Assembly: GCF_014251795.1 (NCBI RefSeq)
Contig: NZ_CP059201.1
Coordinates: 186,001 to 250,000 of the forward strand
DNA length: 64,000 bases
DNA from: Blattabacterium cuenoti
Lineage (GTDB): Bacteria > Bacteroidota > Bacteroidia > Flavobacteriales > Blattabacteriaceae
Direction: 5' to 3'
Of this stretch, positions 19,912 to 45,797 are shown one piece after another. The notes under the pieces were generated by a model. The model was not told where the DNA came from and did no database searches. It worked only from the letters and a program-made list of their open reading frames with translations. Within the stretch, counting starts at the first letter, position 1. Each line of letters opens with the position of its first letter. Position numbers and translations under genes: made by a program.

Positions 19912-19926
19912 ATTAGTTACCCGATT

Positions 19927-19967
19927 AACGGAAAAGAAAGATTTTTCTTTCTTTTCCGTTATTTTTT
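19927..19967 (+). terminator. Strong intrinsic terminator after the lipoprotein gene
   Basis: A perfect 14-bp stem (AACGGAAAAGAAAG / CTTTCTTTTCCGTT) with a 6-nt loop is followed by ATTTTTT. It lies 15 nt after the stop at 19911 and separates the lipoprotein gene from pdhB. It is one of the clearest terminators in the window. Confidence 0.85.
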
Positions 19968-36833: not shown

Positions 36834-37505
36834 ATGATGATGAATCACATAATAGAAAATAAATTTTTTGACATAAAAAAACTAATACCAAAGAATACAC
36901 AAATATTAGTAGTTTCTAAAAATCAAAATTTTTCTAATATAGAGAAATTGTATAGAGTAGGGCATAGAGATTTTGGTGAAAATTATATTCAAGAAATGGT
37001 AGAAAAATATAAAAAATTGCCGAAAGACATTCGATGGCATATGATTGGAAGAATTCAAAGTAACAAATTAAAATATATAATACCTTTTATTCATTTAATT
37101 CATAGTGTTCAAAATATAAAACAAATTGATATAATCAATAAAATTGCATTAAAATATCAGAAAATCATAAACTGTCTTTTACAGATAAAAATTTGTGATG
37201 ATAAAAATAAATCAGGAATCACTTATCAAGAAGCTTCTAAAATATTGGAAAATGAAACTTATAAAAAAATGAAAAATGTAAAAATCATAGGGATAATGGG
37301 AATGGCCTCTTTTCAAGAAAAATTAACAAAAGTACATGATGAATTCTCATATTTACGTAAAATATATAATGAGTATAAAAATAAATATGGACATTATATT
37401 CTTTCTATGGGAATGAGCAGAGATTATAATATAGCTATAAAATATGGAACAACAATTGTTCGATTAGGTACTATGATTTTCGGAAATCGTAAAAAAACTA
37501 TCTAA
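36834..37505 (+). CDS. yggS: PLP homeostasis protein (YggS/PROSC family)
   Basis: A 223-residue alanine-racemase-fold protein with no known catalysis; it binds and buffers PLP. LVVSKNQNFSNIEKLY (PLP Lys), DFGENYIQEM, WHMIGRIQSNK and SMGMSRDYNIAIKYGTTIVRLGT are diagnostic. Three Mets in a row of codons give alternative starts (36834, 36837, 36840). Its end overlaps convergent trpA by 8 nt. Confidence 0.93.
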   Translation: MMMNHIIENKFFDIKKLIPKNTQILVVSKNQNFSNIEKLYRVGHRDFGENYIQEMVEKYKKLPKDIRWHMIGRIQSNKLKYIIPFIHLIHSVQNIKQIDIINKIALKYQKIINCLLQIKICDDKNKSGITYQEASKILENETYKKMKNVKIIGIMGMASFQEKLTKVHDEFSYLRKIYNEYKNKYGHYILSMGMSRDYNIAIKYGTTIVRLGTMIFGNRKKTI

Positions 37506-38271
37506 TAGATTTTATATATTTTGTTACACTTTGATCTAATTTATTTTTATCTAATGATAATGATTGAATAAAAGAACTTCCAATGATTCCTCCATTAGCA
37601 TACTGACATGATAAATCAAAAGTTTTTTTATCTTTTATGCCAAATCCAATTAATTTTGGAGTATCAATAGATAATTCTTTAATACGTTCGAAAAACGATA
37701 TTTGTTCCTGTCCAAAAAAATTCATACTACCTGTAGTAGAAACAGAAGAAACTATATATAAAAAACCATCACTAATTTTACTTAACATCAGTATTCTAGA
37801 TGAATGAGTTTTTGGAGTGATCAAAAATATCATAGACAAAGAATATTTATGAAATATGTTTTGATATTTATTCAAATAAATATCAATAGGAAGATCAGGT
37901 AAAATTAGTCCGGAAACACCTGATTCTTTACATCTTTTTAAAAATTTCTTTTGTCCAAATTGATAAAATTGATTATAATATCCCATAAGAATAATAGGAA
38001 TTTTTATTTCATTTTTAAATTTTTCTATTTGATCAAATAATAAAGAAATATTCATTCCATTATTCAACGAAATTTGATTACTATTTTGTATAATTATTCC
38101 ATCTGCTAAAGGATCAGAATAAGGGATTCCTATTTCAATTAAATCAACAGAAAGATTTTGCAAAATTTTTACAATTTCCATTGTACTGTTAATATAAGGA
38201 AATCCTGCTGTAAAATAAATGCATAATATACTTTTATTTTTATTTTTAAATAAATTATGAATTTGATTCAT
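37498..38271 (-). CDS. trpA: Tryptophan synthase alpha chain
   Basis: A 257-residue TIM barrel. The catalytic Glu is in LIEIGIPYSDPLADG and the Asp in GLILPDLPID; ILMGYYNQFYQFG and VSSVSTTGS bind substrate. It cleaves indole-3-glycerol phosphate and passes indole to TrpB. It overlaps trpB by 17 nt and yggS by 8 nt at the opposite end. Last gene of trpEGDCFBA. Confidence 0.97.
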   Translation of the reverse strand: MNQIHNLFKNKNKSILCIYFTAGFPYINSTMEIVKILQNLSVDLIEIGIPYSDPLADGIIIQNSNQISLNNGMNISLLFDQIEKFKNEIKIPIILMGYYNQFYQFGQKKFLKRCKESGVSGLILPDLPIDIYLNKYQNIFHKYSLSMIFLITPKTHSSRILMLSKISDGFLYIVSSVSTTGSMNFFGQEQISFFERIKELSIDTPKLIGFGIKDKKTFDLSCQYANGGIIGSSFIQSLSLDKNKLDQSVTKYIKSIR

Positions 38272-39460
38272 TATTTTTTAATAATTTAACAAAATATTTA
38301 TCGTAAATATTAATATCTTTATCCCCTCTTCCAGATAATGTCACAATTACTACATCTTTTTTTTGAATAGGTATTTTTTTTAATGCAGCTAATGCATGTG
38401 CACTTTCTAAAGAAGGAATTATACCTTCTGATTGAGTTAACTCATATCCTGCCTGTAAAGCTTCCTCATCTGTAGAAAATAAAAATTTTACACGTTCTTT
38501 TACAAATAGATTGGCAAACATAGGTCCAATTCCTGGATAATCTAGACCAGGAGATATAGAATGAGTAGGAAGAACTTGACCATATTGGTCTTGTAAAATC
38601 AATGTCATACTTCCATGTAATATTCCTTTAGATCCACAGTGAATAGAAGCAGCTGTTTTTTTTGTTTCAATACCTAATCCAGCTGCTTCTACAGCGATTA
38701 GATATACAGAATCGTTGTCAAGAAAATGATAAAATGATCCTGCAGCATTGCTTCCTCCTCCTATACAGGACACTACATAATTAGGAAAAGAAAATCCTTC
38801 TACCTCTTTTAATTGTATTTTAATTTCTTCACTAATAATAGATTGAATATCTGCTACCATTTGAGGATAAGGATGAGGACCTACTGTGGAACCTATTAAA
38901 TAATAACTTTCTGGATGATTGATCCAATAACGAATAGCTTCATTGACAGCATCTTTTAACGTTTTACTTCCACTATAAACTGGACTAACTTCAGCTCCAA
39001 GAGATTTCATTCTGATGACGTTACTATATTGACGTTGCATATCTATTTCTCCCATAAAAATTATGCATTTTAAATCCATTAATGCACAAATAGTAGCAGT
39101 CGCTACTCCATGTTGTCCAGCCCCTGTTTCTGCAACTATCCTTTTTTTTCCCAATTTTCTAGCTAATAAAGCTTGACCTATAGCATTATTTATTTTATGA
39201 GATCCTGTATGATTTAAATCTTCTCTTTTAAGATAAATTTTAGCATTGTATTGATTAGAATACTTTTTACTAAAAAATAAAGGAGAAGGTCTCCCTACAT
39301 AATTTTTTAATAATTCTTTATACATTTTTTGATATTCATAGCTTGTAATCAGTTTTTTGTATTTACATTGTAATTCTTTTATATGATGATATAACATTTC
39401 AGGTATAAAAGCCCCTCCAAATTCTCCATAATATCCATTTTTATCTACAAAAAATTTCAT
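38255..39460 (-). CDS. trpB: Tryptophan synthase beta chain
   Basis: A 401-residue PLP enzyme joining indole and serine. GEFGGAFIPEML is the standard start, the PLP Lys is Lys89 in HTGSHKINNAIGQALLA, ETGAGQHGVATAT and the phosphate loop CIGGGSNAAGSF follow. Its start overlaps the trpF stop by 4 nt. Confidence 0.98.
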   Translation of the reverse strand: MKFFVDKNGYYGEFGGAFIPEMLYHHIKELQCKYKKLITSYEYQKMYKELLKNYVGRPSPLFFSKKYSNQYNAKIYLKREDLNHTGSHKINNAIGQALLARKLGKKRIVAETGAGQHGVATATICALMDLKCIIFMGEIDMQRQYSNVIRMKSLGAEVSPVYSGSKTLKDAVNEAIRYWINHPESYYLIGSTVGPHPYPQMVADIQSIISEEIKIQLKEVEGFSFPNYVVSCIGGGSNAAGSFYHFLDNDSVYLIAVEAAGLGIETKKTAASIHCGSKGILHGSMTLILQDQYGQVLPTHSISPGLDYPGIGPMFANLFVKERVKFLFSTDEEALQAGYELTQSEGIIPSLESAHALAALKKIPIQKKDVVIVTLSGRGDKDINIYDKYFVKLLKNNESNS

Positions 39461-40080
39461 AAACTTCTTATTTTTTTCATAAATATATTTAACTTGATAC
39501 TGTTCTTTTTTCCTGGAAAAATTTCAAATCTACTATTAACATCTATTCCAAACATTTTAGGATGAAAAAAATTTTTGATTTGATCAAAATCTTCCATTCC
39601 AATACCTCCACTTAAGAAAAATGGAACATGAAAAGTGTATTCATCAAGTTTTTTCCAGCAAAATTTTTTCCCACTTCCTCCATAATGAATTGTATGACTA
39701 TCAAATAAAAAATAAGTACAAAAAGGAATATAATCTATAGTTTCTTGATTAAAAGAAAATAGATTATCTATCCTAAAACTTTTAATTAATTTTAACCCTT
39801 TTTGAAATAATTTTTCACAATAAGAAGGACTTTCTGTCCCATGTAATTGAACAATATCTAATTTATGTTTCTTTACTATTTTCAATATATTTTCTTCTGA
39901 TTCATTCACAAAAACACCTACTTTTAATATTTTTTGTTTAAATTTTGGCATAATAAAATTGAAACCTACAAACCTTGGAGAATGAGGATAAAATATAAAA
40001 CCTATAAAATCAGGTAACAAATCAGATATTTTTTGTATTTTGAATTTTATTCCGCATATTTTCATTTTTATAGATCTCAT
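39457..40080 (-). CDS. trpF: Phosphoribosylanthranilate isomerase
   Basis: A 207-residue TIM barrel with the catalytic Cys in KICGIK, DFIGFIFYPHSPRFV, VQLHGTESPSYC, the Asp in YFLFDSHTIHYGGSGKKF, and FFLSGGIGMEDF. Met1 (40080) or Met6 may be the start. It lies one base after trpC. Confidence 0.95.
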   Translation of the reverse strand: MRSIKMKICGIKFKIQKISDLLPDFIGFIFYPHSPRFVGFNFIMPKFKQKILKVGVFVNESEENILKIVKKHKLDIVQLHGTESPSYCEKLFQKGLKLIKSFRIDNLFSFNQETIDYIPFCTYFLFDSHTIHYGGSGKKFCWKKLDEYTFHVPFFLSGGIGMEDFDQIKNFFHPKMFGIDVNSRFEIFPGKKNSIKLNIFMKKIRSL

Positions 40081-40081
40081 A

Positions 40082-40876
40082 TCATATTTTTTCCTTCCCT
40101 TCCAAGGAATCTATAAGGTTCTTACAGGTTTTTCCAGGATCTTTTTCTTTCATAAAATATTCTCCAATTAAAAAACCTTTGAATCCTTGTTTTTTTAATT
40201 CTAATATATGATTCACGTTATTGATTCCACTTTCTGCAATCTTCACATAATCATTAGGGATTTTTGAAGATAATTTGAAACAATTATTATAATCTACAAT
40301 AAAAGTTTGCAAATTTCTGTTATTAATTCCTATAATATCAAAATTATCTGTTATCTTATCTATTTCAAATTCATTATGAATTTCAATCAAAACTTCTAAA
40401 CCAATACTTTTTGAAAGTTGATAAAAATTAAATATCTGATTTTTAGAAAGAATTCCCGCTATTAATAAAATAATATCAGCTCCGATAGATTTAGATTCTA
40501 TAATTTGGTATTCATCGATAATAAAATCTTTTCTTAATATAGGAATAGAAACTATAGAACGTGATTTTTTTAAATCTTCGTTTTTTCCAGAGAAAAAGTG
40601 TTCATCTGTAAGAATAGATATTCCACTAACTCCTGATAATTCATAATCCTTAACTACTTTTTCTACAAATATTGTATTATTAATAATTCCTTTAGATGGA
40701 GATTTACATTTAAATTCTGCAATGATACCCGTATGACTTTGATTTATATTTTTTACCAGAGAAAAAGTTTTTTCTTGAAAAAAAGAACTAGATTCTAATT
40801 TTTTTATAGGAGATACAATTTTCTTGTTATAGACCTCTTTTCTTTTTATAGATATAATTTGGTCAAGAATATTCAT
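40082..40876 (-). CDS. trpC: Indole-3-glycerol phosphate synthase
   Basis: A 264-residue TIM barrel. IIAEFKCKSPSKGII carries two catalytic Lys and the phosphate site; GVSGISILTDEHFFSG, ILRKDFIIDEYQI, DIIGINNRNLQTF and KIAESGINN follow. It overlaps trpD by 4 nt. TrpC and TrpF are separate here, as in most Bacteroidetes. Confidence 0.97.
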   Translation of the reverse strand: MNILDQIISIKRKEVYNKKIVSPIKKLESSSFFQEKTFSLVKNINQSHTGIIAEFKCKSPSKGIINNTIFVEKVVKDYELSGVSGISILTDEHFFSGKNEDLKKSRSIVSIPILRKDFIIDEYQIIESKSIGADIILLIAGILSKNQIFNFYQLSKSIGLEVLIEIHNEFEIDKITDNFDIIGINNRNLQTFIVDYNNCFKLSSKIPNDYVKIAESGINNVNHILELKKQGFKGFLIGEYFMKEKDPGKTCKNLIDSLEGKEKI

Positions 40877-41871
40877 AAGCTTAATAATTTTTTTAGAATA
40901 TTCTTTGCTTTTCCACTTTTTAGTGAACGTTTTGCTTTATCATAATTATTTTCAAGACTATCTTGATTTAATAAACTTAATGCAAATGTAGCGTTTGTTA
41001 AAACAACTTCATTTTGAGAGAAAGTCCCCTCTCCAGATAAAACATTGATAAATATACGGATATTTTCTTCTGTATTTTTTCCTCCTTTTAATTCTTTTGG
41101 ATTAATTATAATTTTTTTCTTTCCCATTTCTAATTCTTCTATAGAATAAAATTGTTCACCTTTTTGCGTATAACATTTGAATCCACTAGTAAGTGTGATT
41201 TCATCATATCCATCTAAACTATGAACAATAGCATAATTTTTATTTGTATTTTGGTACATATAATAATATATTCTTGCTAATTCTAAATTATTGACACCTA
41301 ATAATTGATTTTTTGGTTTTCCTGGATTTAATAATGGACCAAGCGTATTAAAAATAGTTCTGACTCCTAATTCTTTTCTGACTACAGATATAGTCCCTAA
41401 TATAGGGTGAAATATCGGAGCATGTAAATAACAAATTCCTACTTTATCTAATTGGTTTTTTAAATTTTCTTCTTTGTTAGTAAAATGATATCCCAATCCT
41501 CTTAATATATTTGAAGAACCAGTAATAGAAGAAGAACTAAAACTGCCATGTTTTATTACTTTTTCTCCTGCTCCTGCTACAATAAAACATGCTAAAGTAG
41601 AAATATTAAAAGTATTTTTTTCATCCCCGCCTGTTCCTACAATGTCAATTGCATTAAATTCTGTAAGATTAACTTTTATGGATAGTTCCATTATAGCTTG
41701 TTTAAATCCTATTATTTCTTCTAAAGTAGGAGATCTCATATTATATATAGTGATTATAGCTATAATTTGTGTTGGACTCATTTTTCCTTTTGATAATTCT
41801 AAAAATAGATTCTTTGCTTCTTGTTTTTTCAGTGTTTTTTCTAAAAAAAGATTTTTTAGTATTTGTTTCAT
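40873..41871 (-). CDS. trpD: Anthranilate phosphoribosyltransferase
   Basis: A 332-residue enzyme with the PRPP motif GTGGDEKNTFNIST, KHGSFSSSSITGSSNILRGLG, and FNTLGPLLNPGKPKNQLLGV. It is not fused to TrpG. It lies 3 nt after trpG and overlaps trpC by 4 nt. Confidence 0.97.
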   Translation of the reverse strand: MKQILKNLFLEKTLKKQEAKNLFLELSKGKMSPTQIIAIITIYNMRSPTLEEIIGFKQAIMELSIKVNLTEFNAIDIVGTGGDEKNTFNISTLACFIVAGAGEKVIKHGSFSSSSITGSSNILRGLGYHFTNKEENLKNQLDKVGICYLHAPIFHPILGTISVVRKELGVRTIFNTLGPLLNPGKPKNQLLGVNNLELARIYYYMYQNTNKNYAIVHSLDGYDEITLTSGFKCYTQKGEQFYSIEELEMGKKKIIINPKELKGGKNTEENIRIFINVLSGEGTFSQNEVVLTNATFALSLLNQDSLENNYDKAKRSLKSGKAKNILKKLLSL

Positions 41872-41874
41872 AAT

Positions 41875-42453
41875 TTAACTTAAATTCAACCAATTATCTA
41901 TAATTTTTTCTCCATATGGAGTTAAAATAGATTCTGGATGAAATTGGACCCCACGTACATCGTAAAATTTATGACGTAATGCCATAATTTCTCCTTTATT
42001 TCCAATAGCTGTGATCTGAAGTTCGTCAGGAAAATTTTTTTGAGATATAATCCAAGAATGATAACGTCCAACTTTAATTTTTTTAGGTAATTTTTGAAAT
42101 AAAATTTCTTTTGGATCTACTATTTGAATCAAACTAGATATTCCATGATAAACTTTTTTTGTATTGATAAGAGTAGCTCCAAATACTTCTCCTATTGCTT
42201 GCTGTCCTAAACAAACTCCAAAAATACTTTTAGTAGATGCAAAAGTTTTCACTAAAGATTTTAAAATATGTGCTTCATCAGGAATTCCAGGTCCTGGAGA
42301 AAGAATAATTTTATTATATTTTTCTATATCTGAAAGTTGAATCTCATTATTTCTAGATACTTGTATAGAATTTTTTGTCGATTTTTTGACAGCATGAACA
42401 AGATTATAAGTAAAGGAATCATAATTATCCAAAATCAGTATTTTTTTTTTCAT
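41875..42453 (-). CDS. trpG: Anthranilate synthase component II (glutaminase)
   Basis: A 192-residue amidotransferase. LDNYDSFTYNLVH, LSPGPGIPDE, nucleophile Cys81 in FGVCLGQQAIGE, and GVQFHPESILTPYG are diagnostic. In some bacteria the same subunit also serves PabB for folate; no pabB is seen here. It follows trpE by 7 nt. Confidence 0.97.
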   Translation of the reverse strand: MKKKILILDNYDSFTYNLVHAVKKSTKNSIQVSRNNEIQLSDIEKYNKIILSPGPGIPDEAHILKSLVKTFASTKSIFGVCLGQQAIGEVFGATLINTKKVYHGISSLIQIVDPKEILFQKLPKKIKVGRYHSWIISQKNFPDELQITAIGNKGEIMALRHKFYDVRGVQFHPESILTPYGEKIIDNWLNLS

Positions 42454-42460
42454 AATACTT

Positions 42461-43870
42461 TCATATGTTTTTAGCTAATTCGATAGACTTCAATAAGGCC
42501 ATAAGTTTGTTATTTACTTCTTCCAATTCTTTTTCTTCTTTAGAATTGGATACAATACCTGCGCCAGCTTGAAAAAATAGGATATTATTTTTACTTACAA
42601 AAGAACGAATAATTATCGCCGTGTTAATACAAGAATTATTTAATCCAAAAAAACCAATTGCTCCTCCATATACTCCTCTATTTTGATTTTCAATTTGATC
42701 GATTAATTCCATAGCTTTATACTTAGGTGCACCAGAAAGAGTTCCTGCAGGAAAAGAATCTCCAAATACTTTTATAATTGATATATTCTTTTCTATTTTT
42801 CCAGACACTTTAGACACCATGTGTAATACATGAGAAAAAATTTGAATTTCTTTAAATTCTTCTACTTTTACATTATAAGAATTTTTACTAAGATCATTTC
42901 TTGCTAAATCTACTAACATAACATGTTCTGCATTTTCTTTCGGATCATTTTCTAGGGTTTCTGAAAGTTTTTTATCCTGTTCTTTATTTCCTGATCTTCG
43001 TATTGTTCCTGCTATCGGATTAATATAAGCTATTTGATTATGAATAATAAGTTGTGATTCTGGAGAAGATCCAAACAATTTATAATTTCCATAATCAAAA
43101 TAAAAGAGATACGGAGAAGGATTTATAAATCGTAAAGCACGATATACATTAAATTCATCTCCTTTAAACTTTTGTTGAAACTGACGAGATAACACAATTT
43201 GAAAAACATCTCCACGTAAACAGGCTTTGATTCCTAAAGATACCATTTTTTTATACTCCATATCTGTTACATTTGAATGACGATTTCCAACAGATTTAAA
43301 TGAGAAAGATGTAAAATTTTTCTTTTTGATTAATTCAATTAATTGATTGATATAAGTTTTTTTTTCAAAATCATGGAATTGATGTTCTATTAAATAGATT
43401 TCATGATGAAAATGATGAAATACGATTAAATTTTTATAAAAACCGAACCGTATTTGTGGAAGATTATATATTTCTTTAATTGTAGAATTAAATTGAATAT
43501 TTTCAAAATGTTGAATGCTATCATAAGATATATATCCATATAATCCTGAATAATCAATAGTTATATTTTTATTTTCAAATTTTGAAAAAAAATCCTCAAT
43601 TAAAATTTTTATATCTAATTTTTCATTTATAAAAATGTGTTTGTGAACACTGTTAGGATATGATATTCTCAATACATTTTTATCTAAAATAAGTTCAGAA
43701 ATAGGATTAAGACAAAGAATAGAGAAATTTTTTTTTGAAAATTGATAATCAGAAGATTCTAATAATAACGGATTAGGAAAAACATCTCTTAATTTTAAAT
43801 ATAATTCTATTGGTGTAGTACTATCAGCTAAAATTTTTTTCTGAATAGTTCTAAAATTAAATTTGAACAT
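42461..43870 (-). CDS. trpE: Anthranilate synthase component I
   Basis: A 469-residue chorismate-utilising enzyme. The core has PSPYLFYFDYGNYKLFGSSPE, PIAGTIRRSGN, DLARNDLSKN, FPAGTLSGAPKYKAMELI and QAGAGIVSNS. The N-terminal part contains LLESSDY, in line with the LLES element that binds feedback tryptophan, so inhibition by Trp may be kept. It is the first gene of the operon, with a 120-nt structured leader. Confidence 0.97.
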   Translation of the reverse strand: MFKFNFRTIQKKILADSTTPIELYLKLRDVFPNPLLLESSDYQFSKKNFSILCLNPISELILDKNVLRISYPNSVHKHIFINEKLDIKILIEDFFSKFENKNITIDYSGLYGYISYDSIQHFENIQFNSTIKEIYNLPQIRFGFYKNLIVFHHFHHEIYLIEHQFHDFEKKTYINQLIELIKKKNFTSFSFKSVGNRHSNVTDMEYKKMVSLGIKACLRGDVFQIVLSRQFQQKFKGDEFNVYRALRFINPSPYLFYFDYGNYKLFGSSPESQLIIHNQIAYINPIAGTIRRSGNKEQDKKLSETLENDPKENAEHVMLVDLARNDLSKNSYNVKVEEFKEIQIFSHVLHMVSKVSGKIEKNISIIKVFGDSFPAGTLSGAPKYKAMELIDQIENQNRGVYGGAIGFFGLNNSCINTAIIIRSFVSKNNILFFQAGAGIVSNSKEEKELEEVNNKLMALLKSIELAKNI

Positions 43871-43893
43871 GATTTATGGTATTTTGACATTAT

Positions 43894-43921
43894 AAAAAAA
43901 GGCCGTCACAAAGACAAGCCT
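43894..43921 (-). terminator. Intrinsic terminator in the trp leader (attenuator candidate)
   Basis: On the minus strand AGGCTTGTC, loop TTTGT and GACGGCCT form an 8-bp stem with one bulged T and one G-T pair, followed by TTTTTT. It ends 24 nt before the trpE ATG, downstream of the candidate promoter, so it must be passed to express the operon. Confidence 0.65.
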
Positions 43922-43925
43922 CAAA

Positions 43926-43945
43926 AATATTGTCAACACAATACT
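43926..43945 (-). promoter_or_regulatory. Upstream leader hairpin competing with the trp terminator
   Basis: On the minus strand AGTATTGT, loop GTTG, ACAATATT form an 8-bp stem (one G-T pair). Its 3' arm holds GACAA (43930-43934), which can pair instead with TTGTC (43913-43917), the 5' arm of the terminator. That gives a 1:2 / 2:3 / 3:4 arrangement as in classic attenuators. No Trp-rich leader peptide is visible. Confidence 0.5.
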
Positions 43946-43994
43946 TTAATTGAAGAATACCATTTACTACTTGAGAAATGACATTTACATCATG

Positions 43995-44002
43995 CAAATA
44001 TA
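43995..44002 (-). promoter_or_regulatory. Candidate -7 box for the trp operon
   Basis: The minus strand reads TATATTTG. The predicted start is near 43989, giving a leader of about 120 nt. A perfect 9+9 palindrome (CTATTTATT/AATAAATAG, 44016-44035) lies just upstream, where the -33 region would be; it may be an operator but AT-rich palindromes of this size occur by chance. Confidence 0.5.
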
Positions 44003-44051: not shown

Positions 44052-45797
44052 ATGAAAATATTTATTTTTACTTTCTTTATTTTTTTTATCTATAATTCAT
44101 GCATCTATACATGCATCTGTAACAGTATAGATGAAAAAAAAATAAATCAAATGCATATTGACGAAAAAGAAAATGATAAATTTTATCATCCTACTTTTCA
44201 AGATTATAAATATTGGACAGAAGAAATGAATATAAAAAAAACTTTTTTAGAAAAATCTTTTTCTATAAAAAAATATTATTCTCAAAATTTTTTAAAAAAT
44301 GATGATATAAGTTTTTTTTCCAGAAATGGAAAAGACTTTCTTATTATTAGAGATGAAAAATTTATGAAAGGAAATTTTAATCAAAATATGCAAAAAAATA
44401 TCTTTTTTTTTCAAGATCCTTTTTTTTATCGAGAAAAAATTCAATATTATGATGTAAAAACTCCTATTTCAGAAATTTTTTATATAAATAATTCTTTTAA
44501 TGGAGAAAAAATATTAAGTGCTTTTTTTTCTAAAAATTTTAATGAAAAAATTAACTATTCTATAGAATATAGAAATTCTAATTTAAAAAATAAAATAAAA
44601 AAAAGTAAAGATTTAATATTAACTACCTTGAATTATCAAGATCATGATAATTATAAATTGTGGGGACATTATATTTATCAAAAATTTGAAACAAAAGAAA
44701 AAGAAAAAATCCCAAAATGGGATATAATGAATTACAAAAATGTTTTTTTTAATTATAAAAAATTAGTTCATAGCAGATTTTATATAAATTTCATTCAAAA
44801 AATATTTTCTTTTAAAGAAAGATCGATATGTTTAAAAAATTATGTGGAATATGAAAAATATTTTATAAACTATTCATTTTATGATTCTTATATATTTCAT
44901 AATTTTGAAAAAAAAACAATGAATCATTTTTATTTGAGAAATGGTTTATTTTTAATTTTCAATCAAAAAAAAATAAATATAGAAGTAGGATCTATTTTTG
45001 ATAAAATACATTATCAATTATTGAGTGCAAATGATTTTAAAAATAAATATATCAATAATTTATCCATACAAACTAAAGTAAATTATCCTATTAGTAATGT
45101 TTTGAATTTCTATTCAAATGGAAAATGGATTATCGGAAATGGAAATAAAAACATTAATTATCAAACTGATATTATGTTAAATACTTTTTTATTTTCAAAA
45201 TTTTTGTTTTTAACTCGATTGAATATTGATAACATCAAAAATGATCAAAATATCAATCAAAAAAAAACAATAGATTTTTCTTTAAGTTCTGAACATGGAG
45301 ATAAATATTCTATTTTTATATCTAGATTAAATCATTTTTCAATGAAAAAAATTTATTCATATGGATTTAAAATTCAAACCACACATGAAATATCAAAATT
45401 TGAATTAAATAATATTTTTTTCTATCACAAGTGTAATGATAATCCATTAATTTTTTCTATTCCAAATTTTTTATCTAAAAATACAATTTTTTATAAAAAT
45501 AATTATTTTAATCAAGCTTTATTTATACAAACAGGTTTTTCTTTTCATTATTTTAGTAATCCTAAAAAAATTTCTTATCCTTTTGATTTTCAAAGTTTTT
45601 TTTTAGAAAAAGAGTATCTTCCTATTGAAGGGAAAATTTCAAAAACTTATTTTTTAGATTATTTTTTCAATTTTAAAATATATAGAACTATATTTTACTT
45701 TAATATTCACAATATAGATACAGAATTTATTTCTAATCCTCATAATCCTCATAGGATATTTATTAAAACTGGTTTCGTTTGGAATCTTTTTACTTAA
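44052..45797 (+). CDS. Putative outer membrane porin (Porin_10-like)
   Basis: A 581-residue protein with a signal peptide (hydrophobic residues 3-20). The part near residues 130-180, reading YYDVKTPISEIFYIN then FSKNFNEKINYSIEYRNS, resembles the start of the barrel in Bacteroidetes putative porins of the Porin_10 type. The remainder is rich in alternating aromatic and polar residues, and it ends in FIKTGFVWNLF with an aromatic last residue but one, as expected for an outer-membrane barrel. The base composition is extremely AT-rich and the sequence much diverged, so the family call is by pattern only. Substrate is unknown. It is divergent from trpE. Confidence 0.6.
   Translation: MKIFIFTFFIFFIYNSCIYTCICNSIDEKKINQMHIDEKENDKFYHPTFQDYKYWTEEMNIKKTFLEKSFSIKKYYSQNFLKNDDISFFSRNGKDFLIIRDEKFMKGNFNQNMQKNIFFFQDPFFYREKIQYYDVKTPISEIFYINNSFNGEKILSAFFSKNFNEKINYSIEYRNSNLKNKIKKSKDLILTTLNYQDHDNYKLWGHYIYQKFETKEKEKIPKWDIMNYKNVFFNYKKLVHSRFYINFIQKIFSFKERSICLKNYVEYEKYFINYSFYDSYIFHNFEKKTMNHFYLRNGLFLIFNQKKINIEVGSIFDKIHYQLLSANDFKNKYINNLSIQTKVNYPISNVLNFYSNGKWIIGNGNKNINYQTDIMLNTFLFSKFLFLTRLNIDNIKNDQNINQKKTIDFSLSSEHGDKYSIFISRLNHFSMKKIYSYGFKIQTTHEISKFELNNIFFYHKCNDNPLIFSIPNFLSKNTIFYKNNYFNQALFIQTGFSFHYFSNPKKISYPFDFQSFFLEKEYLPIEGKISKTYFLDYFFNFKIYRTIFYFNIHNIDTEFISNPHNPHRIFIKTGFVWNLFT

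Follow-up and report, generated by a model that had tools for sequence, protein, structure and literature searches.

The Bacteroid-trp leader RNA (Rfam RF01692; Weinberg et al. 2010, PMC2864571) is found upstream of trpE in Bacteroidota, where it follows a TAnnTTTG-type promoter and ends, shortly before the start codon, in a terminator with a GGCTTGTC (GGCUUGUC) 5' arm and a T-tract. The last 14 positions of its consensus read AAAAAAGGCUUGUC. A premature terminator between promoter and trpE is likewise part of the proteobacterial leader-peptide attenuator of the E. coli trpL type. Loss of transcriptional control is the general expectation for reduced endosymbionts. Since the amino-acid operons of Buchnera, a reduced endosymbiont supplying amino acids as Blattabacterium is, reportedly lack leader sequences as well as attenuation (PMC3091783), the keeping of half an attenuator would be unusual among such symbionts. 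In Karelsulcia and Walczuchella, two more amino-acid suppliers, trpE is retained but lacks a leader of this kind, whereas Blattabacterium has the terminator. A literature search found no paper on trp attenuation in Blattabacterium.

The window, a stretch of 64,000 nucleotides from the genome of the cockroach endosymbiont Blattabacterium cuenoti, carries the trpEGDCFBA operon on the minus strand (37498-43870). Its first gene, trpE (42461-43870, minus strand), encodes anthranilate synthase component I of 469 aa. The gene on the other side of the leader (44052-45797, plus strand) is divergent, so the leader terminator cannot serve it. The original prediction had placed an attenuator-like leader at 43871-44002, with a promoter box, a first hairpin and a terminator ahead of trpE, and the sequence confirmed both the coordinates and the description. 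Read 5' to 3', the leader consists of TATATTTG, the short frames MSFLK and MVFFN, hairpin 1, the terminator, seven T, AAAATACCATAAATC and the trpE ATG. In what follows L-numbers denote trpE leaders and G-numbers genomes, L001 being the leader of the window's genome. The features are:

43995-44002, minus strand: TATATTTG, a Bacteroidota -7 promoter box of the type TAnnTTTG
43967-43984, minus strand: putative uORF1, ATG TCA TTT CTC AAG TAG (MSFLK), which is also block A (AAATGTCATTT); identity 0.754
43946-43963, minus strand: putative uORF2, ATG GTA TTC TTC AAT TAA (MVFFN), with no in-frame Trp codon
43956-43963, minus strand: ATGGTATT, complement of AATACCAT beside the trpE start codon
43926-43945, minus strand: hairpin 1, AGTATTGT-GTTG-ACAATATT, moderately supported and in the L001 clade only
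43894-43922, minus strand: intrinsic terminator with stem GAGGCTTGTC/GACGGCCTT, loop TTTGT and a 7-T tract (stem and loop 43922-43899, T-tract 43900-43894)
43876-43883, minus strand: conserved AATACCAT within the region where trpE translation starts; the surrounding block AAAATACCATAAATC has an identity of 0.865

The whole leader folded better than its dinucleotide shuffles (z -2.9, 2/200). Mean pairwise identity among the compared leaders reached 0.895 in the block AAAAATTTATTTATATTTG around the promoter box. A sigma-70 promoter scan was uninformative, Bacteroidota promoters being of another type.

Almost every free-living member of the Bacteroidota examined had a WW or WWW leader peptide ahead of trpE. 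In free-living Flavobacteriales these peptides, for example MNTILNNTWWWNSRNSNS and MNTITNNTWWWNNLRQTS, are followed by a terminator of the form AAGGCTTGTC-n-GACAAGCCTTTTTTT or GACAGGCC, that is, the same GGCTTGTC hairpin stands before trpE after a WWW-run leader peptide. G051, whose TrpE is the most similar among free-living relatives (59% identity), encodes MNFWWNTY, and GGCTTGTC follows. RF01692 scored 88.5, 58.7 and 61.4 bits in the free-living leaders L051, L054 and L140, respectively. A covariance model of the terminator stem, R1, was built from 18 distinct Blattabacterium sequences only; its best-scoring matches, at 29 to 23 bits (E 0.0008-0.014), fell on the attenuator terminators ahead of trpE in free-living Flavobacteriales. 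Because R1 finds the free-living terminators and both GGCTTGTC and the end of the RF01692 consensus are shared, the Blattabacterium terminator can be taken to descend from the attenuator terminator; as judged by sequence comparison, the two are homologous. The label attenuator-like is upheld by this descent from a flavobacterial Trp-codon attenuator. The 3' arms differ, being GACGGCC in Blattabacterium and GACAAGCC or GACAGGCC in Bacteroid-trp RNAs.

The sensing part of such an attenuator was not recovered. WW occurred in no leader ORF of any Blattabacterium leader examined, and a single in-frame W from an ATG was seen in L004, L008 and L037 only. The L001 leader holds just MSFLK (43984-43967) and MVFFN (43963-43946), in agreement with the original prediction that no leader ORF with Trp codons is present, and the Trp-codon run of RF01692 is thus missing. 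RF01692 gave no match above its gathering cut-off (49 bits) in any of the 49 genus genomes; there was none at trpE and scattered matches were at chance level. The window's leader matched Rfam by chance only, with no T-box up to E=10 and no other credible family. Unlike Bacteroid-trp RNAs, the leader lacks a Trp-codon leader peptide and a detectable ribosome-controlled antiterminator, and remains below cut-off in 49/49 genomes; as it falls short in Trp codons and in model score, it is a degenerate variant of RF01692 rather than a member. It differs from the E. coli trpL type in having no Trp codons, no supported 2:3 antiterminator and no Rfam match. The sensor, which had been described as unknown, can be named for the ancestor, where comparison identifies it as a WWW leader peptide; no sensor was found in Blattabacterium.

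Two candidate peptides were considered and set aside. A leader peptide in the TGG frame of AAATGGTATTC has no upstream start codon in that frame in L001. A switch of specificity from W to F in MVFFN is not favoured, given that the codons vary non-synonymously (MKYFN, MRFFN, MIIFQN) and that control of trp by Phe would act in the wrong direction. The ATG of uORF2 is retained in most leaders and its codons show no synonymous conservation. For uORF1, ATG-TCA-TT(T/A)-CTN is kept in most leaders, CTN occurs with all four third bases, and the forms MSFLK, MSLLK, MSFLILK and MSFLELKERK are found; it might be a translated micro-ORF.

Switching was examined in silico by folding partially made transcripts with the ribosome footprint masked, and a free-living set of 36 leader entries, a few genomes being entered twice, served as control of the mechanism. 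In the free-living leaders a ribosome on WWW made the terminator 5' arm pair more with the RNA upstream of it (0.69 instead of 0.41, +0.29), and a ribosome at the stop codon gave 0.44, which is what classical attenuation requires. In Blattabacterium no switch was seen, as masks on uORF1 or uORF2 shifted 5'-arm sequestration by only -0.01 to -0.14 on average; no ribosome position on the remaining uORFs raised it. In equilibrium folding the terminator had a probability near 1 in every leader tested. The original prediction had further proposed that GACAA in the first hairpin (43934-43930) pairs alternatively with TTGTC in the terminator (43917-43913). The two are exact complements in this genome, but 1923 of 2000 partner swaps were as good as the leaders' own partners and GACAA is not conserved, most relatives having CACAA, TACAA, AGCAA, ATCAA or others at this place. 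This antiterminator was accordingly abandoned. Hairpin 1 itself had a mean z of -1.4 over 30 leaders and about -2.4 in several members of the L001 clade, and in other clades its arms are swapped for other short hairpins. Conservation of both helices, on which the prediction had depended, was strong for the terminator and moderate, within the L001 clade only, for hairpin 1.

The terminator has the G+C-rich stem and following T-tract of an intrinsic terminator, and it lies roughly 30 nt ahead of the trpE start in most leaders. Relative to L001, 67-77% of hairpin G/C positions were retained against 10-13% at trpE fourfold G/C sites (77% against 13% in L002-L030). The T-tract held 7.6 T per 9 bases where 3.6 were expected and directly followed the stem in 34/34 hairpin-bearing leaders, even in those with replaced arms; in L034, L036 and L038 the inner arms are rewritten and hairpin and T-tract are still present. 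Swapping 3' arms between species weakened the pairing of the terminator 5' arms: none of 2000 permutations was as good as the arms' own partners, in a test that is inflated by relatedness. Column covariation within the stem was weak and not significant because the stem sequence is nearly invariant. This retention indicates that the terminator is kept by selection in most of the genus and is not decaying.

Orthologues of trpE are present in 44 of the 49 Blattabacterium genomes, and Trp synthesis has been lost repeatedly in the genus. Full trpE is absent from G001, G026, G041 and G043, and in G014 the gene is riddled with stops. On the trpE tree the terminator is found on both sides of the root, with independent losses in L015, L027, L031, L040 and L043/L044 and a few degenerate forms. 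In about ten lineages the terminator is missing or degenerate, which makes it dispensable for some of them. L007 and L024, which belong to separate lineages, both carry, immediately ahead of trpE, a tandem duplication of the TTTTT(A/C)ATCATG that follows the terminator.

The stem pattern occurred once each in 25/49 genus genomes, always just upstream of trpE and nowhere else in those 25. In the 626-kb genome of the window R1 scored 48 bits at 43894-43922 and 18.6 bits at the second-best site, and across the genus it matched at trpE in 32/49 genomes with a single extra site. One match in the genome and matches at trpE in 32 of 49 argue against a chance origin of the terminator. The extra site, G010:C1:65484-65512, scored 27.6 bits and lies away from trpE. 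A scan of the window's genome for T-tract hairpins, with a threshold of six T and at most -7 kcal/mol that weaker leaders could escape, returned 13 intergenic hairpins, three of which precede a gene of the same strand and have a divergent neighbour on the other side. Only that of trpE is clean; one of the others overlaps the start of a folK-like gene and one is inside a small open frame. Of leader terminators in this genome, the scan gave a single clean one, that of trpE.

Taken together, the leader is probably the selected, sensor-less terminator half of an ancestral Bacteroid-trp attenuator, which now would act as a fixed partial terminator. The half that sensed Trp, comprising a leader peptide with Trp codons in a row and its antiterminator, would have been lost along the lineage to Blattabacterium. 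RNA polymerase would start at TATATTTG, and the conserved stem and T-tract suggest that, independently of the Trp supply, a fixed fraction of polymerases halts at the T-tract while the rest make trp mRNA. The hairpin would set a constant, reduced transcription of the trp operon and would be kept by selection because its loss would over-express the operon. Constitutive partial termination, originally offered as a product of decay, thus fits best, but the decay part fails for a terminator under selection in most of the genus. An attenuator would here have lost its sensor and kept its actuator, which selection maintains in the greater part of a genus. This would provide a test case for regulation that becomes a fixed set-point as genomes are reduced, and the hairpin-less lineages would be natural knockouts for comparison.

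The conservation of the upstream leader counts against a purely fixed terminator, which would not require those blocks. Identities in AAATGTCATTT, AAATGGTATTC and ACAATATT were 0.75-0.81 against 0.67 at fourfold sites, and block A (AAATGTCATTT), block B (AAATGGTATTC) and the start-adjacent AATACCAT were all conserved above fourfold sites. On this ground the leader could still respond to something other than Trp codons, through a two-state RNA or through translation of its short uORFs, and couple readthrough to general translation, a reading that we consider doubtful. In the two-state version AGGTAAATGTCAT paired with the terminator 3' half would be the ON state, and ATGGTATT/AATACCAT over the trpE start together with the terminator the OFF state. 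The AGGTAAATGTCAT/ATGACGGCCTT duplex reaches -9 to -10 kcal/mol in L012, L014, L017, L020, L022, L028 and L029 and -7.6 in L032, so that AGGTAAATGTCAT could take the place of the terminator 5' arm in one large clade. A ATGGTATT/AATACCAT helix over the trpE translation start is possible: it is part of the MFE fold and own partners beat swapped ones (p=0.048), and it is broken in L006, L010, L011, L025 and L027. However, block A could pair only weakly with the terminator 3' half in the window's clade, at about -5.5 kcal/mol, the partner-swap test gave p=0.17, uORF masking had no consistent effect and the terminator was fully formed at equilibrium in every leader tested. It also survives without uORFs and block A: L041 consists of the promoter box, ~30 A-rich bases and the terminator, L038 keeps the terminator, and neither has an ATG uORF or block A. 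Outright replacement of the Trp-codon sensor, by the two tiny Trp-free uORFs or by a two-state RNA linking the terminator to the trpE start, is rather less to be expected; if true, the old terminator would answer a new signal, for example general translation or the nitrogen state of the host.

A 5' UTR hairpin can protect its mRNA, and the position of this one ~30 nt ahead of trpE would suit a 5' stabiliser or processing site of the mRNA in place of a transcription terminator. Such a role is improbable, since a stabiliser would need no T-tract, which all 34 hairpin-bearing leaders possess, and the free-living homologue is an attenuator terminator. That the terminator is a neutral leftover which has simply not yet decayed draws on its loss in several lineages, by which loss is evidently possible; the almost complete turnover of neutral G/C in trpE, set against the retained hairpin G/C, contradicts it, however, and makes it very unlikely. 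A terminator-bearing leader is also the usual output of systems in which Trp is sensed by a TRAP-like or TrpR-like protein or through uncharged tRNA-Trp in the manner of a T-box. The TRAP domain (mtrB) is absent from the window's genome, nothing over cut-off was found there for TrpR, and the leader contains no T-box, which leaves sensing of this kind barely credible. A fixed partial terminator remains the reading we favour.

Two observations concern other terminators and leaders. The strongest hairpin of the genome scan lies at 19926-19961 (plus strand) of the window, where a perfect 16-bp hairpin TAACGGAAAAGAAAG/CTTTCTTTTCCGTTA with a T-tract separates two genes of like strand. A gene resembling a pyruvate-dehydrogenase beta-type subunit begins 44 nt further on; the hairpin is probably an ordinary intergenic terminator. 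Among the free-living leaders, L055 carries two successive WWW leader ORFs (MQKINTIWWWQSKL, MLNNKINNWWWPV...) from ~310 to 150 bases before trpE and L057 is similar, apparently representing tandem Trp attenuators before one trpE.
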